This document shows positions 751 to 7,841 of a DNA stretch of 7,841 nucleotides, piece by piece (the first letter of the stretch is position 1; each line of letters opens with the position of its first letter). Source of the DNA: Acidobacteriota bacterium. GTDB taxonomy: Bacteria > Acidobacteriota > Terriglobia > UBA7540. The DNA lies in NCBI GenBank assembly GCA_003165615.1, contig PLWR01000750.1, positions 2,694 to 10,534 of the forward strand. The letters run 5' to 3'. Made by a program: the position numbers and the translations under genes. Below the pieces are notes generated by a model. It had not been told where the DNA came from. It worked only from the letters and a program-made list of their open reading frames with translations, and ran no database searches.

Positions 751-2271
751 ATGCCACAAGCTTCTCCCCCTCGATTGTTCTTCCGCAATGCCGCGCAACT
801 GGTCACCCTGTCAGGCCCGTCGGTCCCGCGGCGCGGGGCAGCCCTCGGCGAGCTGGGAATTATATCCAAGGGCGGCCTGCTGACGGAGGGAGAGACCATC
901 CTGCGCGTTGGCTCGACGAGCTCGCTGGAGCGCGAGGCGTTGCGACTGGGCGCCGAGGCCATCGACTGCCGTGGGCAGGTGGTCATGCCCGGCTTTGTTG
1001 ATTCGCACACGCATTTGATCTTCGCCGGCAGCCGGGTGAATGATTACGAGCTGCGCCTGCGCGGAAAAACGTACGAAGAGATCGCGCAGGCCGGAGGCGG
1101 GATTCAATCCTCCGCGCAGAAAGTACGGAAAGCCAGTGTTTCATCTTTGGTGCAGCAGGCGGCAAGATTTCTGGACCAGTTCGCCGCGCACGGCACGACC
1201 ACGGTGGAAGTGAAAAGCGGCTACGGGCTGGACGTCGCGCCGGAATTGAAAATCCTGCGCGCCATTCGATTGCTGCAAGCGGATCAAGCGCTGGAATTAG
1301 TTCCCACGCTGCTCGCCCTCCATGCGCTCCCGGCGAGTTTTCGTGGGCGCTCCGCCCAGTATGTGGACCAAGTCATCAAGCGGCTGATCCCTTTGGCCGC
1401 GGGCGTTGACGTAGCGCCGTGCTCTAGAGGCTGCGAAAAAACTCATGGGCACTGTCATTCTGAGGAGCCAGCCGGCGACGAAGAATCTCGCGTTGCCTTG
1501 AAAACGCTCAGAGCGAGGTCTTTCGCTGCTGCTCAGGATGACAGCATTGGAACGTCTTTCCGCAGCCTGTTCAGCCCGGCACATGCCGCCCTCCCGACCA
1601 AGTCGGGACAGGTTCCGGACGGCGCTACAACGGCGAAGAACCAAGTGGTGCGAGAGAAGCTGGCGGAATTCATCGACTGCTTCTGCGACCGGGGCGCGTT
1701 CAGCGTGGAAGACTGCCGCCGCGTGTTTGACGCGGGCCGCAAGTTTGGACTTGTGCCCCGAATCCACCCCGAGCAACTTTCGCGCACCGGCGCCGCGCGC
1801 CTCGCCATCGAGTTTGACGCTGCCTCCGCCGACCATCTTGACAAACTTTCCGCCGCCGACATTCGCGCCCTGGCGCGCTCAGACGTGGTCGCCACACTTC
1901 TGCCGGGAGCCAATTTCCACCTGGGATTGAAGCAGTATCCTCCCGCGCGCAAGCTCATCGACGCCGGTGCCGCCGTGGCGCTGGCCACGGACTTTAATCC
2001 CGGCACCAGCCCCACCCTGAACATGCAATTCATCCTGTCATTAGCCTGCGCGCAGATGCAAATGACCCCGGCGGAGGCCATCGCCGCATCAACCATCAAC
2101 GCCGCCCACGCCCTGCGCCGCGCCCACCGCATCGGTTCACTCGAAGCCGGTAAACAAGCCGATTTGATTGTGCTGGATGTCGATGACTACCGCGAAATCC
2201 CCTATTACTTTGCGATGAATCATTGTGCAATGACGGTGAAGCGAGGAAGGGTCATCTACTTGCGGAGTTAG
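751..2271 (+). CDS. hutI: Imidazolonepropionase with a repeat-derived in-frame insert
   Basis: HutI hydrolyses 4-imidazolone-5-propanoate to N-formimidoyl-L-glutamate, the third step of histidine degradation, in the cytoplasm. It is an amidohydrolase-fold metalloenzyme. Visible landmarks are a family-typical start (RNAAQLVTLSGP, residues 12-23), the metal-binding HTH at 86-88 in GFVDSHTHLIFAG, SGYGLD at 156-161, HALP at 191-194, RIHPEQ with His339, SADHL with His362 and LATDFNPGTSPT with Asp414. All expected metal and catalytic positions are present. At 506 residues it is about 80-90 longer than the usual ~410-420. The excess lies at roughly residues 220-297, between VDQVIKRLIPLAA and KLAEFIDCFCD. 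It is made of palindromic repeat DNA read in frame, including the peptide CHSEEPAGDEESR. By the TIM-barrel order this is a helix-to-strand loop, away from the active-site face, so activity could survive. No stop or frameshift is seen. The start lacks a clear ribosome-binding site. Confidence 0.95.
   Translation: MPQASPPRLFFRNAAQLVTLSGPSVPRRGAALGELGIISKGGLLTEGETILRVGSTSSLEREALRLGAEAIDCRGQVVMPGFVDSHTHLIFAGSRVNDYELRLRGKTYEEIAQAGGGIQSSAQKVRKASVSSLVQQAARFLDQFAAHGTTTVEVKSGYGLDVAPELKILRAIRLLQADQALELVPTLLALHALPASFRGRSAQYVDQVIKRLIPLAAGVDVAPCSRGCEKTHGHCHSEEPAGDEESRVALKTLRARSFAAAQDDSIGTSFRSLFSPAHAALPTKSGQVPDGATTAKNQVVREKLAEFIDCFCDRGAFSVEDCRRVFDAGRKFGLVPRIHPEQLSRTGAARLAIEFDAASADHLDKLSAADIRALARSDVVATLLPGANFHLGLKQYPPARKLIDAGAAVALATDFNPGTSPTLNMQFILSLACAQMQMTPAEAIAASTINAAHALRRAHRIGSLEAGKQADLIVLDVDDYREIPYYFAMNHCAMTVKRGRVIYLRS
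1428..1568. repeat. 141-bp palindromic element inserted in frame in hutI
   Basis: Nested inverted repeats mark this element. The outer arms are AGGCTGCGAAAAA (1428-1440) and CTTTCCGCAGCCT (1556-1568), matching at 11 of 13 positions. The inner arms are CTGTCATTCTGAG (1452-1464) and CTCAGGATGACAG (1532-1544), matching at 12 of 13. End to end it is 141 bp, or 47 codons, and hutI reads through it without a stop. There is no transposase gene, so it is at most a non-autonomous, MITE- or REP-like element. The inner arms look to me like a repeat often seen between genes in acidobacterial genomes; that recollection needs a database check. Confidence 0.85.
1592..1608. repeat. Second small hairpin in the hutI insert
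   Basis: TCCCGAC (1592-1598) and GTCGGGA (1602-1608) form a perfect 7-bp stem with a 3-nt loop. It sits in the remaining part of the insert (about 1569-1635), which also has no counterpart in ordinary HutI. It encodes LPTKSG at residues 281-286. It probably marks a second repeat piece joined to the 141-bp element. Confidence 0.6.
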
Positions 2272-3937: not shown

Positions 3938-4240
3938 TTAGGCAGAAACTTCGGCAAGGGGATGAATGCGCCGGAGATGGATTTGGTTCTGGCGCTTGCG
4001 GGTTTGGGCGATGTCGTAGGAGGCTTGCATTCGCAGCAGCGTGTCCATTTTCACGCCAAAGGCCTTTTCAAGGCGCAGCGCCATGTTTCCGGAGAGGCTG
4101 GCCCTGCCGTTGAGCAGGCTCGACAGGGTAGGCCGGGAAACCTGAAGCGCCGCGGCTGCCGCAGTCACCGAAAGGCCCGCGGGCGTAATAATCTCCGTCC
4201 GAACGAAATCTCCCGGATGGGGCGGGTTCTTCATGGGCAT
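3938..4240 (-). CDS. higA: HigA-family antitoxin (XRE helix-turn-helix)
   Basis: This 100-residue protein starts MPMKNPPHPGDFVRTEIITP, with the hallmark PxHPGxxLxxE of HigA/VapI antitoxins. The helix-turn-helix lies at about residues 24-46 (SVTAAAAALQVSRPTLSSLL), followed by the conserved NGRASLSGNMALRLEKAFG. It would bind and neutralise the HigB toxin and, through the HTH, repress the shared operon. It lies 19 nt downstream of higB in the toxin-first order typical of hig loci. GGAGG (4252-4256) sits 11 nt before its ATG, so it has its own good ribosome-binding site, whereas higB has none. This would favour antitoxin excess. The C-terminus after residue 80 is poorly conserved. The 69 bp between this gene and the secreted-protein gene shows no clear terminator. 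Confidence 0.93.
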   Translation of the reverse strand: MPMKNPPHPGDFVRTEIITPAGLSVTAAAAALQVSRPTLSSLLNGRASLSGNMALRLEKAFGVKMDTLLRMQASYDIAQTRKRQNQIHLRRIHPLAEVSA

Positions 4241-4259
4241 GGCGTTTGCTTCCTCCGTC

Positions 4260-4550
4260 CTAATGATAGTCTTCCAGATTCACGTCGCAAATTTCGCGCT
4301 CCGTGCGGTCGAAGCAGAACGTCAATCGCCGGTTGCGTGTGACGCTCAGGCTCCAGGTGCCTTTGCGGTCACCGGTCAGCGTGTGAACTTTCCAGCTCGG
4401 GAGCGAGCGCAATTCCTCGGGTTCCTGCATGTCATCGAGAAATGCCGGCATCTTACGGAGCTTATCCGCCGTTTCGGGGGAAATACCTTTTGAGCTGTCT
4501 TGCTCGTAGAGCCCTTTCAGGCCCTTGTGGATAATGTTCCGTATTTTCAC
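4260..4550 (-). CDS. higB: HigB-family mRNA-interferase toxin
   Basis: HigB toxins have a RelE-type fold and cleave mRNA, usually on the ribosome. The 96-residue sequence has the family blocks IIHKGLKGLYEQ (6-17), KGISPETADKLRKM (21-34), LPSWKVHTLTGDRKGTWSLSV (50-70), NRRLTFCF (73-80) and the C-terminal signature DVNLEDYH (89-96). Its length is close to the usual 92-95. The reading frame stays open further upstream, but conservation begins at KIRNIIHKG, so the start is one of two adjacent GTG codons (4553 or 4550). No Shine-Dalgarno is visible, and the promoter would start transcripts at about 4551. The mRNA is therefore probably leaderless or nearly so. It forms an operon with higA 19 nt downstream. 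Confidence 0.92.
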   Translation of the reverse strand: MKIRNIIHKGLKGLYEQDSSKGISPETADKLRKMPAFLDDMQEPEELRSLPSWKVHTLTGDRKGTWSLSVTRNRRLTFCFDRTEREICDVNLEDYH

Positions 4551-4557
4551 CACGCGG

Positions 4558-4586
4558 AGTGTAGCCCGTAGCCTTACACATGTCAA
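4558..4586 (-). promoter_or_regulatory. higBA promoter with candidate HigA operator
   Basis: On the minus strand, a perfect TTGACA (4581-4586), a 17-bp spacer and TACACT (4558-4563) form a strong sigma-70 promoter. An inverted repeat with arms GTGTA (4559-4563) and TACAC (4575-4579) covers the -10 box and most of the spacer. HigA binding there would block polymerase, giving the usual autorepression. The spacer also holds a tandem GGCTAC on the minus strand. The promoter is well supported; the operator is inferred from position and symmetry. Confidence 0.75.
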
Positions 4587-4610
4587 TGGGATAAAGCAGG
4601 CGGATGTCAC

Positions 4611-4920
4611 GGCGGCTTTGCGCCGCCAGGTGGCGACGTAAACTCGCCGCCATCTCTGCCAGGTGGCGGGGTAAACCCGCCGCTACGCTTGCAGGAGCCG
4701 ACCGCGATTCGGCCCTACATCCGCACATGCCGACCTCAAGGTCGGGGCTAGGTCGTGTCGGGCAAAAGCCCGGCGGTGCGTTTGCCCCCCTCGCCGTGCC
4801 CCCGACACTCCCCCGCATCGTTATCGGCGGGTGGGGTGATGCGGATGAAGAGTTCTCAGCGTACAAACGCCGTGGGAGAGCGGATGCTCCCGGCTGAGCG
4901 GCCGGGACTCCCGCGCCACG
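4611..4920. repeat. Mosaic of short hairpins and direct repeats between higB and ftcD
   Basis: This ~310-bp stretch has no credible gene; the open frame at 4604-4897 is Arg/Ala-rich repeat translation. It contains two direct copies of a 28-nt unit (4625-4652 and 4658-4685, 24 of 28 identical, 33-bp period) built around GCCAGGTGGCG and TAAACYCGCCGC. Hairpins follow: CCGACC/GGTCGG (4730-4745), CGGGC/GCCCG (4759-4772), CCGCATC/GATGCGG (4813-4844) and TCCCGGC/GCCGGGA (4888-4907). It lies between the divergent higB and ftcD promoters. It looks like an accumulation site for REP-like elements. A role as insulator or DNA-structure element is possible but not shown. Confidence 0.75.
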
Positions 4921-5079: not shown

Positions 5080-6693
5080 ATGCAAACTCTTATCGAATGC
5101 GTTCCCAATTTCAGTGAAGGCCGCGACCCCGCGGTGGTGGACGCGATCGTTCACGCCATACTCGCCGGGCCGGAAGTTTACCTGCTCGATCGCGAGATGG
5201 ACGCCGACCACAACCGTTCGGTGATCACTTTTGTTGGAACTCGTGAAAGCGTCGGTGAAGCGGCGCTGCGCGGCATCGGCAAAGCGGCGGAATTGATTGA
5301 CCTGAACCATCACCAGGGAGCGCACCCGCGTTTGGGCGCTACCGACGTCGTACCCTTTGTGCCACTCTCGGGCGTCACACTGGAAGACTGCGTCCACATC
5401 GCGGAATGGGTGGCGGAAGAAACCTGGCGGCGATTTAAGATTCCCACCTACCTTTACGAAGCCGCAGCGCGCAAGCCGGAGCGCGTCAATCTGGAGAACA
5501 TCCGGCGCGGCCAGTTCGAAGGCGTGCGCGAGGAGATCGGCAACAATCCCCATCTCCACCCGGATTTCGGCGAGGCGGCGCTGCATCCCACGGCGGGCGC
5601 TACGGTGGTGGGGGCGCGCAAATTCCTGATTGCCTACAACATCAACCTGAGCACACCGGACGTTGCGCCCGCCAAGGCCATCGCCAAAAAGATTCGAGCC
5701 TCGAGCGGCGGATTTCCCTGCGTGAAGGCGATGGGAGTGGAATTGAAAGCCCGCAACCTGGCGCAGGTGTCGATGAACCTGACGGATTTTGAAACCACCT
5801 CGCTGGCAAAGGTTTTTGAGACGGTGGCACTGGAAGCCGCGGCGCTCGGCATTCAGGTGGTGGGCAGCGAGATTGTGGGCCTGGTCCCGCGCAAGGCACT
5901 TGACGCCGCTGCGGTACACTTCCTGCGTGTCGAAACTTTTCGTCCGGAATTGGTGGTGGAGAATCGCTTGGAACAGATCCGGGCAGATCGAAAATCAAAA
6001 ATCGAAAAACGAAAATCGTACGCCGACCTATCGGCAATCGGCAATCGACAATCGGCAATCCCGCAAGCCCCGCTGCGAGCGATGGTGGAAGAGTATGTGA
6101 ACATGGTGGCGGCTCCCACGCCGACTCCTGGTGGCGGCAGCGCGGCGGCATTCGCGGGGGCGCTGGCGGCGGGTTTGGGGGAAATGGTTTGCGGCGTATC
6201 GCTGAAACGGAAATCGCTCGCTGCCCATCACGCGGGGTTGGAAGCGACGCGCGCGCGCCTGGCCACATTGCGCGAGCGGCTGATGGAAATTGTCGATCTC
6301 GATCCGCAGAGTTACGAGGCCCTGATGCGGGCTTTCAAGTTGCCCAAATCCACCGAGGCGGAGCAGACCGCGCGCGACCAGGCAATCGCGGAAGCCAGCC
6401 AGCAGGCTTCGATGGCGCCTTTGGAGACAGCGGAGTTAGCGGCGGCCGTGGGGCGTGAGATTGCGAGCCTGGCGGGGATTACCATTCCACAAGCGGCGTC
6501 GGACCTCAGCGTGGCATCGAGTTTGGCGGAGACGGCGCGGCGTGGGGGAATCGAAAATGCTCGCGCCAATCTTCCCGGCGTTCGGGACGATAATTGGCTT
6601 AGGAGCGTTAAGGCTCGGTTGGACATTGTGGATAAAGGGCAGATAAGCGGTGATGAGGACCACAAGACACTGCGCGGGCAGCCACTACGGTAG
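5080..6693 (+). CDS. ftcD: Bifunctional glutamate formimidoyltransferase / formimidoyl-THF cyclodeaminase
   Basis: The protein moves the formimidoyl group from N-formimidoyl-glutamate to tetrahydrofolate (EC 2.1.2.5), then deaminates it to 5,10-methenyl-THF (EC 4.3.1.4). This finishes the histidine route that HutU and HutI feed. Residues 1-300 are the transferase: CVPNFSEGRD (7-16), DADHNRSV (41-48) and HQGAHPRLGATDVVPFVPL (78-96), whose His82 matches the catalytic His82 of the pig enzyme, then NINLSTPD and RNLAQVSMNLTDF. Residues 331-537 are the cyclodeaminase, with AAPTPTPGGGSAAAFAGALAA (344-364) and IPQAASDLSVAS (469-480). Its length of 537 is close to the ~541 of mammalian FTCD, with the same domain order. 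The linker (about 303-330), rich in Arg, Lys, Ser and Ile, is encoded by a 77-bp heptamer repeat. The ATG at 5080 is the first after an in-frame stop; no Shine-Dalgarno is clear. It is driven by the promoter at 4945-4973. Confidence 0.97.
   Translation: MQTLIECVPNFSEGRDPAVVDAIVHAILAGPEVYLLDREMDADHNRSVITFVGTRESVGEAALRGIGKAAELIDLNHHQGAHPRLGATDVVPFVPLSGVTLEDCVHIAEWVAEETWRRFKIPTYLYEAAARKPERVNLENIRRGQFEGVREEIGNNPHLHPDFGEAALHPTAGATVVGARKFLIAYNINLSTPDVAPAKAIAKKIRASSGGFPCVKAMGVELKARNLAQVSMNLTDFETTSLAKVFETVALEAAALGIQVVGSEIVGLVPRKALDAAAVHFLRVETFRPELVVENRLEQIRADRKSKIEKRKSYADLSAIGNRQSAIPQAPLRAMVEEYVNMVAAPTPTPGGGSAAAFAGALAAGLGEMVCGVSLKRKSLAAHHAGLEATRARLATLRERLMEIVDLDPQSYEALMRAFKLPKSTEAEQTARDQAIAEASQQASMAPLETAELAAAVGREIASLAGITIPQAASDLSVASSLAETARRGGIENARANLPGVRDDNWLRSVKARLDIVDKGQISGDEDHKTLRGQPLR
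5987..6063. repeat. 11-unit heptamer array encoding the FtcD interdomain linker
   Basis: Eleven 7-bp units run in strict phase for 77 bp. The first four are of type ATCGAAA (5987-6014), then two are diverged, then five are of type AATCGGC (6029-6063). Because 7 is not a multiple of 3, successive units are read in rotating frames, giving a mixed RKSKIEKRKS then IGNRQSAI linker. The 13-mer TCGAAAAACGAAA (6002-6014) is the exact reverse complement of 486-498 in the hutU-side hairpin, so both belong to one repeat family. Confidence 0.9.
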
Positions 6694-7122: not shown

Positions 7123-7841
7123 AAGTCGCGCTGGTCGGCCAACCCAATTCAGGCAAAAGTACCCTATTTAATGCGGTTGCGGGCTATCGTTCGCTCACCT
7201 CGAACTTCGCCGGCACCACGGTTGAGTACACCCGCGGGCAGGCGCGGGTAGGCGGCGTAGTTCTGGAACTCATTGATCTGCCTGGACTTTACTCCCTGAC
7301 GCCCACCTCCCCGGTGGAAGAGGTCAGTCGCGATTATCTATTGGCTGGCGATTGGGATGTCATTATTAATGTGGTGGACGCCTCGCAAATGGCTCGCAGC
7401 CTGGAACTGACCCTCGAACTGCTGGACTTGCAATCGCCCATGGTGCTCTGCCTGAACATGATGGACGAGGCGGCGCGCAAAGGCATGACCATCGACACTC
7501 ACGCCCTGGCAACTGCCCTGGGAGTGCCGGTGGTGGAGGCCATTGGAGGGCGCGGTCGCGGCATACTTGAGACCTTCCGCACCGCGCAGGAGGTCGCCGC
7601 CAGCGGCAATCGCCCGCCCGCCTTCGTCTATGCGCCGGACGTGGAAGGCACGATTGAAGAGCTTGCGGAGAAGATCGCCGCCAGCGCAACGGGGCAACCG
7701 GTAGCCATTGCCAAGCAGTCAGGAGCTAGTGTGGTGTCCCGCGTAATATTTGACGATGGGAGAATGGACGGACCCCCTCACCCCCCGGCCCCTCTCCCCC
7801 AAGGGGGCGAGGGGAGAGTTGATTTTCCCGCCCTCGCCCCC
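7119..7841 (+). CDS. feoB: FeoB ferrous iron transporter, N-terminal G domain (runs off the window)
   Basis: FeoB is an inner-membrane Fe2+ transporter with a cytoplasmic G-protein domain at its N-terminus. The visible 241 residues carry G1 GQPNSGKST (7-15), the switch region NFAGTTVEYTRG (29-40, canonical NWPGVTVE), G3 DLPG (53-56), G4 NMMD (113-116) and the GGRGRGI region in place of a G5 loop. The GTG start overlaps the feoA stop by 4 nt. The first membrane span lies beyond the window edge. From about residue 219 the sequence becomes PPHPPAPLPQGGEGR, which is repeat-derived and not normal for the helical part that follows the G domain. The frame stays open to the last base, so it cannot be decided here whether the gene is intact further on. 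Confidence 0.93.
   Translation, partial: MKVALVGQPNSGKSTLFNAVAGYRSLTSNFAGTTVEYTRGQARVGGVVLELIDLPGLYSLTPTSPVEEVSRDYLLAGDWDVIINVVDASQMARSLELTLELLDLQSPMVLCLNMMDEAARKGMTIDTHALATALGVPVVEAIGGRGRGILETFRTAQEVAASGNRPPAFVYAPDVEGTIEELAEKIAASATGQPVAIAKQSGASVVSRVIFDDGRMDGPPHPPAPLPQGGEGRVDFPALAP
7773..7841. repeat. C/G-rich hairpin repeat read in frame in feoB
   Basis: CCCCTCTCCCCC (7789-7800) and GGGGGCGAGGGG (7803-7814) pair at 11 of 12 positions around a 2-nt loop. C-rich tracts flank it on both sides (7773-7786 and about 7827-7841), so the element probably continues past the window. I recognise this CCCCTCACCCC...GGGGAG pattern as a common intergenic repeat in several GC-rich phyla; a search would confirm it. 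It shows no stop in the feoB frame. Confidence 0.75.

Follow-up and report, generated by a model that had tools for sequence, protein, structure and literature searches.

Repetitive extragenic palindromes (REPs) tagged with GTAG form REPtrons with RAYT genes, occur in many copies, fold into hairpins and are in some cases found in frame within genes (Di Nocera et al. 2013, PMC3733652). Among the in-frame hosts named there are genes for DNA synthesis and for tRNA pseudouridine synthase, and two Xanthomonas species have a GTAG REP at about the same site of recB; GTAG repeats are listed for Proteobacteria, Cyanobacteria, Chloroflexi and the PVC superphylum, and TIR-flanked TIRYTs for Acidobacteria (PMC3733652). 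The REPtron arrangement, with a transposase gene beside REPs, is described in two sources (PMC6006769, PMC3733652), and for Acidobacteria the first of these reports Class 3 TnpA-Y1 structures that are atypical and have a CnGA foot, with about 600 dispersed hairpins in Solibacter usitatus (PMC6006769). Translated palindromes are known from Rickettsia, whose palindromic elements carry the tag CGTC (PMC3733652) and are read in frame inside unrelated enzymes (PMC10969869, PMC3733652), and intragenic REPs are known from several other phyla (PMC3733652). Among the top-ranked matches in the open-licence literature, we found no report of in-frame REP or MITE peptides in Acidobacteria.

The window, by which we mean the whole stretch of 7,841 nucleotides analyzed here, looks like a hut region of Terriglobia, its nearest named proteins and contigs being from Terriglobia or Acidobacteria, and comprises the end of hutU (2–445), hutI (751–2271, forward strand), a gene for a formiminotransferase-cyclodeaminase fusion (FtcD, 5080–6693) and the start of feoB, which is still open at the window end. 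We consider it highly probable that a REP landed in frame in HutI, the histidine-degrading enzyme imidazolonepropionase, that a YTAR-targeting MITE, here called E2, inserted in the loop of that REP, and that both are translated and tolerated. The hutI reading frame encodes 506 aa without an internal stop, in agreement with a first-pass annotation that had called the gene intact. Its protein scored 443.9 bits against the hutI profile TIGR01224 (cut-off 298.15), the match being split into two stretches, and this score together with the conserved residues places it in the HutI family. Six of these residues (H86, H88, H191, H339, H362 and D414), which we take to be metal or active-site residues of HutI, are invariant in 53 aligned proteins, and the earlier statement that the catalytic residues are kept was thus borne out for these candidates.

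The insert-free HutI relatives listed are mostly 422–423 aa long, and the solved HutI chains have 416–429 residues. When the window protein was aligned to its relatives, the insert fell between the LIP and FIDCF motifs, whose distance is 9 residues in most HutI rows and 92 in the window, giving 83 extra residues in a single helix-to-strand loop, as the initial estimate of 80–90 surplus residues in one place had implied. The two structure alignments shown agree, with query residue 209 facing residue 207 of 2puz and query residue 301 facing residue 216, and likewise for 2gok. In the AF2 model a helix (201–216) is followed by a low-confidence insert and then by a strand (307–310), consistent with the helix-to-strand position proposed from the sequence. 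The confidence of the model is moderate (mean pLDDT 68, pTM 0.67) and its best fold matches are solved HutI structures; the insert has pLDDT blocks of 26–55 and is predicted to be disordered. Judged by the family architecture, the loop would lie on the barrel face that points away from the active site.

The first-pass annotation had described one mobile palindrome captured in frame in this loop. Capture in frame is supported, but the insert consists of two elements, one inside the other. The outer one, a GTAG-tagged REP (1411–1628, forward strand; GTAGCGCC...GGCGCTAC), encodes HutI residues 221–293 together with the E2 that interrupts it. It has GTAG at 1411–1414 and CTAC at 1625–1628, and in the predicted fold (RNA parameters) the GTAG at 1411 pairs with the CTAC ending at 1628 to give one closed structure of −102.9 kcal/mol. 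The plain REP is about 50 bp long with VAPGFSPAHAALKGGAT as its in-frame peptide; four of its six frames are stop-free, and its 50-bp consensus is predicted to form two hairpins, with GTAG/CTAC closing the structure (−35.9 kcal/mol). Within the window, the left part of the REP (1411–1426, forward strand) ends in TCTA (1423–1426), presumably the left-hand duplicate of the E2 target site. The right part (1570–1628, forward strand) consists of TTCA (1570–1573), presumably the right-hand duplicate, the remainder of hairpin 1, and hairpin 2, which has a small additional stem, CCCGACCAAGTCGGG (1593–1607). A similar "PTxSGQxPDGAT" variant of the right part occurs in some MnmE proteins. A REP-like hairpin, CACATGCCGACCTCAAGGTCGGGGCTA, can also be read directly from the sequence upstream of the FtcD gene (4724–4750, forward strand).

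The dispersal of the REP is known from the genomes of relatives alone. In five of these, sites with at most 2 mismatches numbered 25 in G005, 9 in G011, 3 each in G001 and G009, and only 2 in G007, so that the numbers vary much, and the reversed pattern gave 0 sites in all five. Genome G005 contains seven PF01797 matches, two of which lie between or beside GTAG REPs within ~260 bp: on contig C180 the gene is placed among REPs and on contig C115 beside one REP. In the same genome a plain 50-bp double hairpin, GTAGCGCCGGGCTTTAGCCCGGCATGTGCCGCCCTAAAGGGCGGCGCTAC, adjoins a RAYT-type gene (L308). These neighborhoods, found in G005 only, suggest that the REP is probably mobilized by a RAYT (TnpA-REP) transposase. 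A search of the whole window against Rfam gave one match, far below the gathering score and outside the hutI insert, and a plasmid search gave no match.

The inner element, E2 (1427–1569, forward strand), is a 143-bp MITE bounded by terminal inverted repeats, for which the family consensus is CAGGCTGCGGAAAAAC; the 141-bp element first reported was recovered at 1428–1568, one base shorter at each end. Its core palindrome (TGTCATTCTGAG ... CTCAGGATGACA; predicted fold) lies at 1453–1543 on the same strand. Matches to E2 numbered 21 in G007, 8 in G005, 7 in G011, 2 in G009 and 0 in G001, again varying much among relatives, and many of them cover chiefly the core palindrome. We found a 16-bp TIR of CAGG type at both ends of 33 copies (5 and 6 mismatches allowed), a set that includes one doubtful pair of 336 bp. 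At 1 mismatch the TIR pattern occurred at 2–137 sites per genome in eight genomes, against 0 or 1 for the reversed control. Exact 4-bp target duplications were present in 8 of the 33 copies, in comparison with 3.3% of mismatched pairs, and on average 2.58 of the 4 flanking bases matched, in comparison with 1.54 (none of 20,000 permutations as high). The consensus of the duplication is YTAR-like at the level of the family, and in the window it is degraded to TCTA/TTCA, with 2 of 4 bases matching. Two of the six frames of E2 are stop-free and, because E2 and a 4-bp duplication together make 147 bp or 49 codons, the hutI frame is kept. No IS-sized inverted TIR pair that might represent an autonomous transposon with E2 ends was noticed by eye among the matches listed, and the papers listed for the E2 letters (20 of 125) looked unrelated.

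A general rule that E2 sits in hairpin loops was rejected: over 31 copies the outer-flank dyad score was 5.55, versus 5.16 for mismatched pairs, with no copy above the 99th percentile of the control. Exactly at loop spacing, 10 of the 33 copies had a GGGC or GCCC stem (random-position control: mean 0.47, maximum 4 in 2,000) and the other 23 had neither motif. As the test was framed after the flanks had been inspected, the copies had been selected for their resemblance to the window E2 and its kin, and the ten positives include the window E2 itself and two tandem copies of G005, the result is only suggestive.

In the window, E2 splits the first hairpin of the REP in its loop. It occupies the same point of the REP in HutI of the window and G005, read as DNA, and of homologue P0002, read as peptide, and an E2-type insert occupies this point in two MnmE proteins (P0121 and P0122) at the peptide level. 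The window protein is represented by homologue P0001, which has 5 member sequences on 6 contigs, and with the composite of REP and E2 shared by P0002 and G005, a one-off assembly join, considered beforehand as a possible source of the insert, is unlikely. A tandem array on contig C27 of G005 (L309) has two E2 copies joined to REP halves and full REPs, which suggests recombination between composites.

The recurrence of the same joint in HutI, in MnmE and, on one side, in this array can also be explained by the composite moving as one unit, or by gene conversion copying it between REP sites, in which case HutI and MnmE received it ready-made. We give this a low but real probability. The window and G005 differ in the hutI flanks by a dS of 1.07 with a dN/dS of 0.101, and at silent sites E2 (pS 0.273) is closer than the flanks are (pS 0.57; 0.316 in the lowest 47-codon flank window). 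One old E2 insertion inherited by both therefore fits poorly, and the low divergence may reflect a separate entry in each lineage, homogenization of the copies, or hairpin pairing that slows change. On the tree, too, the window does not group with P0002 and G005, which would suit movement as a unit, although the test does not reject a clade of the three (p-AU 0.505). Against unit movement, E2 has terminal inverted repeats and a target duplication of its own and also occurs away from REP-like loops (the 23 of 33 copies above), and the P0122 peptide, when read back, would fit a duplication of 4 bases flanking E2 within the loop of the REP, though codon degeneracy permits other readings. We thus favor two elements that moved separately, with E2 most likely arriving in hutI after the REP.

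To place the insert among its relatives, we used 126 HutI rows, namely the 120 homologues listed, which are the best of 7,998 scored, minus P0001, plus the window and six genome-derived proteins. An insert at the helix-to-strand site was found in 43 of the 126 rows, in a list that favors insert carriers because the query carries one, and 83 rows lack it (after relabelling of P0099). By motif, 39 of the 43 are REP-like (P0073, P0102, P0114 and P0119 are not clearly so), and only the window, P0002 and G005 contain E2; relatives with a simple REP peptide and no E2 at this site were recognized from the peptide. A tree was built from 86 rows; the 40 omitted comprise 36 insert-free rows and 4 carriers (P0038, P0041, P0042 and P0080), and P0099 is outside the tree. 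The insert changes state 14 times on this tree, at least 7 of these changes being forced by well-supported branches, and a single origin of all inserts was rejected (one carrier clade, 39 versus 47 rows, p-AU 4e-29). From these two results the HutI loop seems to gain and lose inserts repeatedly. The HutI stretch could be read in 14 of 40 genomes of the order of G001, and G005 alone has an insert at this site, in the nested form. In HutI of G003 (L004 / L083) the REP-like peptide is a different one, EPRAHAPAVGPVFSPARVG, and lies elsewhere in the protein, ahead of the HALP strand.

The presence of REP inserts at this site in so many rows makes it no one-off, and a recent, silent loss of function, the alternative originally offered, is unlikely. 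A large double insertion in a conserved enzyme could still be seen as the mark of a fresh pseudogene that happens to stay open. We regard this as highly improbable: the frame is intact, the candidate catalytic residues are conserved and REP-bearing orthologues are open as well, although broken ones would be missed because the protein database holds only predicted proteins. The hutI flanks are moreover under purifying selection, with an omega of 0.10 between two carriers of the nested insert, part of whose divergence may predate the inserts.

Adoption of the insert as a functional part of HutI, in a regulatory, oligomeric or RNA-hairpin role, would be consistent with its presence at one site in the 43 rows of this carrier-favoring list and with a pN/pS below 1 (0.42) in the E2 part of the window/G005 pair. 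The latter requires no selection on the peptide, and we do not claim any, because nine E2 copies outside hutI (entries in open stretches of the same frame, at most 123 aa) give 0.38–0.83 in the same pseudo-frame; a reversed comparison for contig C67 of G007 covered 5 codons and was too short to use. The length of the insert also varies strongly, with LIP–FIDCF gaps of 36–99 residues, and the many state changes on the tree and the predicted disorder likewise speak against a role, making adoption improbable. Most likely the insert is a floppy surface loop without a function of its own, which the enzyme tolerates while retaining its activity.

A search with the E2 peptide returned two matches among 12 candidates, this HutI and MnmE P0121; its silence on other proteins means little, because the E2-bearing P0002 was missed. 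In P0121 the same composite lies between the G4 (NKSD) and G5 (TSAL) motifs, and the E2-type insert of P0122 was judged from the peptide ends. Among the 120 MnmE relatives listed (the best of 7,998 scored), a loose pattern finds a REP-like motif in the G4–G5 loop of 50 (a strict pattern in that of 25), 66 have none, and in 4 the loop could not be located. REP peptides without E2 thus occur at the same MnmE site, and DNA read in six relatives gave a clear in-frame REP in G011.

The REP peptide as query gave 110 matches in 25 of the 40 genomes, and we inspected ORFs at 14 loci and 12 further regions. Profile matches, several of them below curated cut-offs and some partial, identify as hosts TrmFO, with the REP at the C-terminus (two genomes), PrmC, with two different sites (two genomes), MtnA, a BadF-type ATPase, a type ISP restriction protein, two protein kinases in G018 and a B-family DNA polymerase (two genomes). 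The REP is N-terminal to the domain in a LarA-like protein and upstream of the likely start in a NuoH-like ORF named from sequence only (L312), and four of the 12 further regions (L316, L318, L319 and L321) contain no ORF of at least 200 aa with the REP peptide pattern. Stop-free frames of at least 300 aa, counted by eye and not all shown to be genes, were found for the HutI frame in 19 of 110 matches, for the opposite strand in 10 of 104 and for the third frame in 3 among the matches listed, and we claim no reading-frame bias from them.

Other repeats of the window are observations of their own. The interdomain linker of the FtcD fusion (5990–6060), RADRKSKIEKRKSYADLSAIGNRQSAIP, is encoded by short repeats of the AATCGAAAA and CGGCAATC types, with 6000–6014 an exact inverted match to 486–500, and it is possibly a second in-frame repeat in the same operon. 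At 7773–7841 the feoB frame seems to run on through a further palindromic repeat (GPPHPPAPLPQGGEGR, DNA CCCCTCTCCCCCAAGGGGGCGAGGGGAGAG), and similar "SPSPQGRG" peptides occur in kinases of G018. An inverted repeat of 45 nt (427–531; 84% complementary, 15-nt loop) overlaps the end of hutU, and a HigA/HigB-type toxin–antitoxin pair (HTH_3 and a HigB-like toxin) lies on the minus strand between hutI and the FtcD gene (3938–4610).

The history we propose begins with a GTAG-tagged REP, probably spread by RAYT, that would have landed in frame in the HutI loop before the FIDCF strand in a lineage of Terriglobia; the YTAR-targeting E2 would then, most likely later, have entered the first REP loop with the frame kept, and both may be translated together, forming a floppy loop at the surface that HutI tolerates. 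We regard the insert as real and largely explained, and as one case of a wider pattern in which GTAG REPs are translated in Terriglobia, the REP in this case holding a nested MITE. At one site HutI comes in graded forms, from the enzyme without an insert through one with a REP to one in which a MITE is nested in the REP; MnmE offers the same series, and dispersed copies outside both genes are found in relatives. With this series one can test whether translated repeats are no more than tolerated or can give rise to new segments of proteins, and whether the first repeat provides a safe site for a second. The case illustrates how selfish repeats may end up in a translated loop, apparently tolerated by the enzyme, and repeat peptides in predicted proteins should not be mistaken for domains. 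More tentatively, REPs in coding loops might be reusable, frame-safe landing pads, whose TTYA/YTAR-like tip attracts MITEs at the same base and in phase, such that conserved enzymes, HutI and MnmE among them, would grow step by step through the nesting of mobile palindromes across a bacterial order.

The likeness to the palindromic elements of Rickettsia that the first-pass annotation had drawn is one of behavior. In both systems unrelated enzymes are invaded in frame, and the insert works like those elements but is not a member: it comes from another phylum, combines two unrelated nested elements, and has a GTAG outer tag and CAGG-type E2 ends instead of CGTC (PMC10969869, PMC3733652). As the tag is GTAG and RAYT-type genes lie beside the REPs in G005, the outer element is by sequence best classed with the GTAG-REP/RAYT kind. 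It shares with the GTAG REPs described in PMC3733652 the GTAG end, the hairpins, the occurrence of some copies in frame and, as seen in relatives, the dispersed copies and the RAYT neighbors, and differs from the REPs described there in being a double hairpin in Terriglobia that recurs at one HutI and one MnmE loop and has a second element nested in it. Its tag is paired with CTAC, whereas the tags are unpaired in the descriptions of PMC3733652, and its 50 bp exceed the 20–40 bp quoted for REPs. Contigs C180 and C115 of G005 show the arrangement of the REPtrons of PMC6006769 and PMC3733652. The Class 3 TnpA-Y1 structures likewise combine a REPtron-like transposase with dispersed hairpins in this phylum, but have a CnGA foot where the REPs here have GTAG (PMC6006769). 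The inner element has its closest counterpart elsewhere: E2 resembles the bacterial YTAR MITEs with IS5- or IS701-like ends in its terminal inverted repeats and its YTAR-rich 4-bp target duplication, and stands apart from them in the GGGC or GCCC stem that 10 of its 33 sampled copies have exactly at loop spacing.
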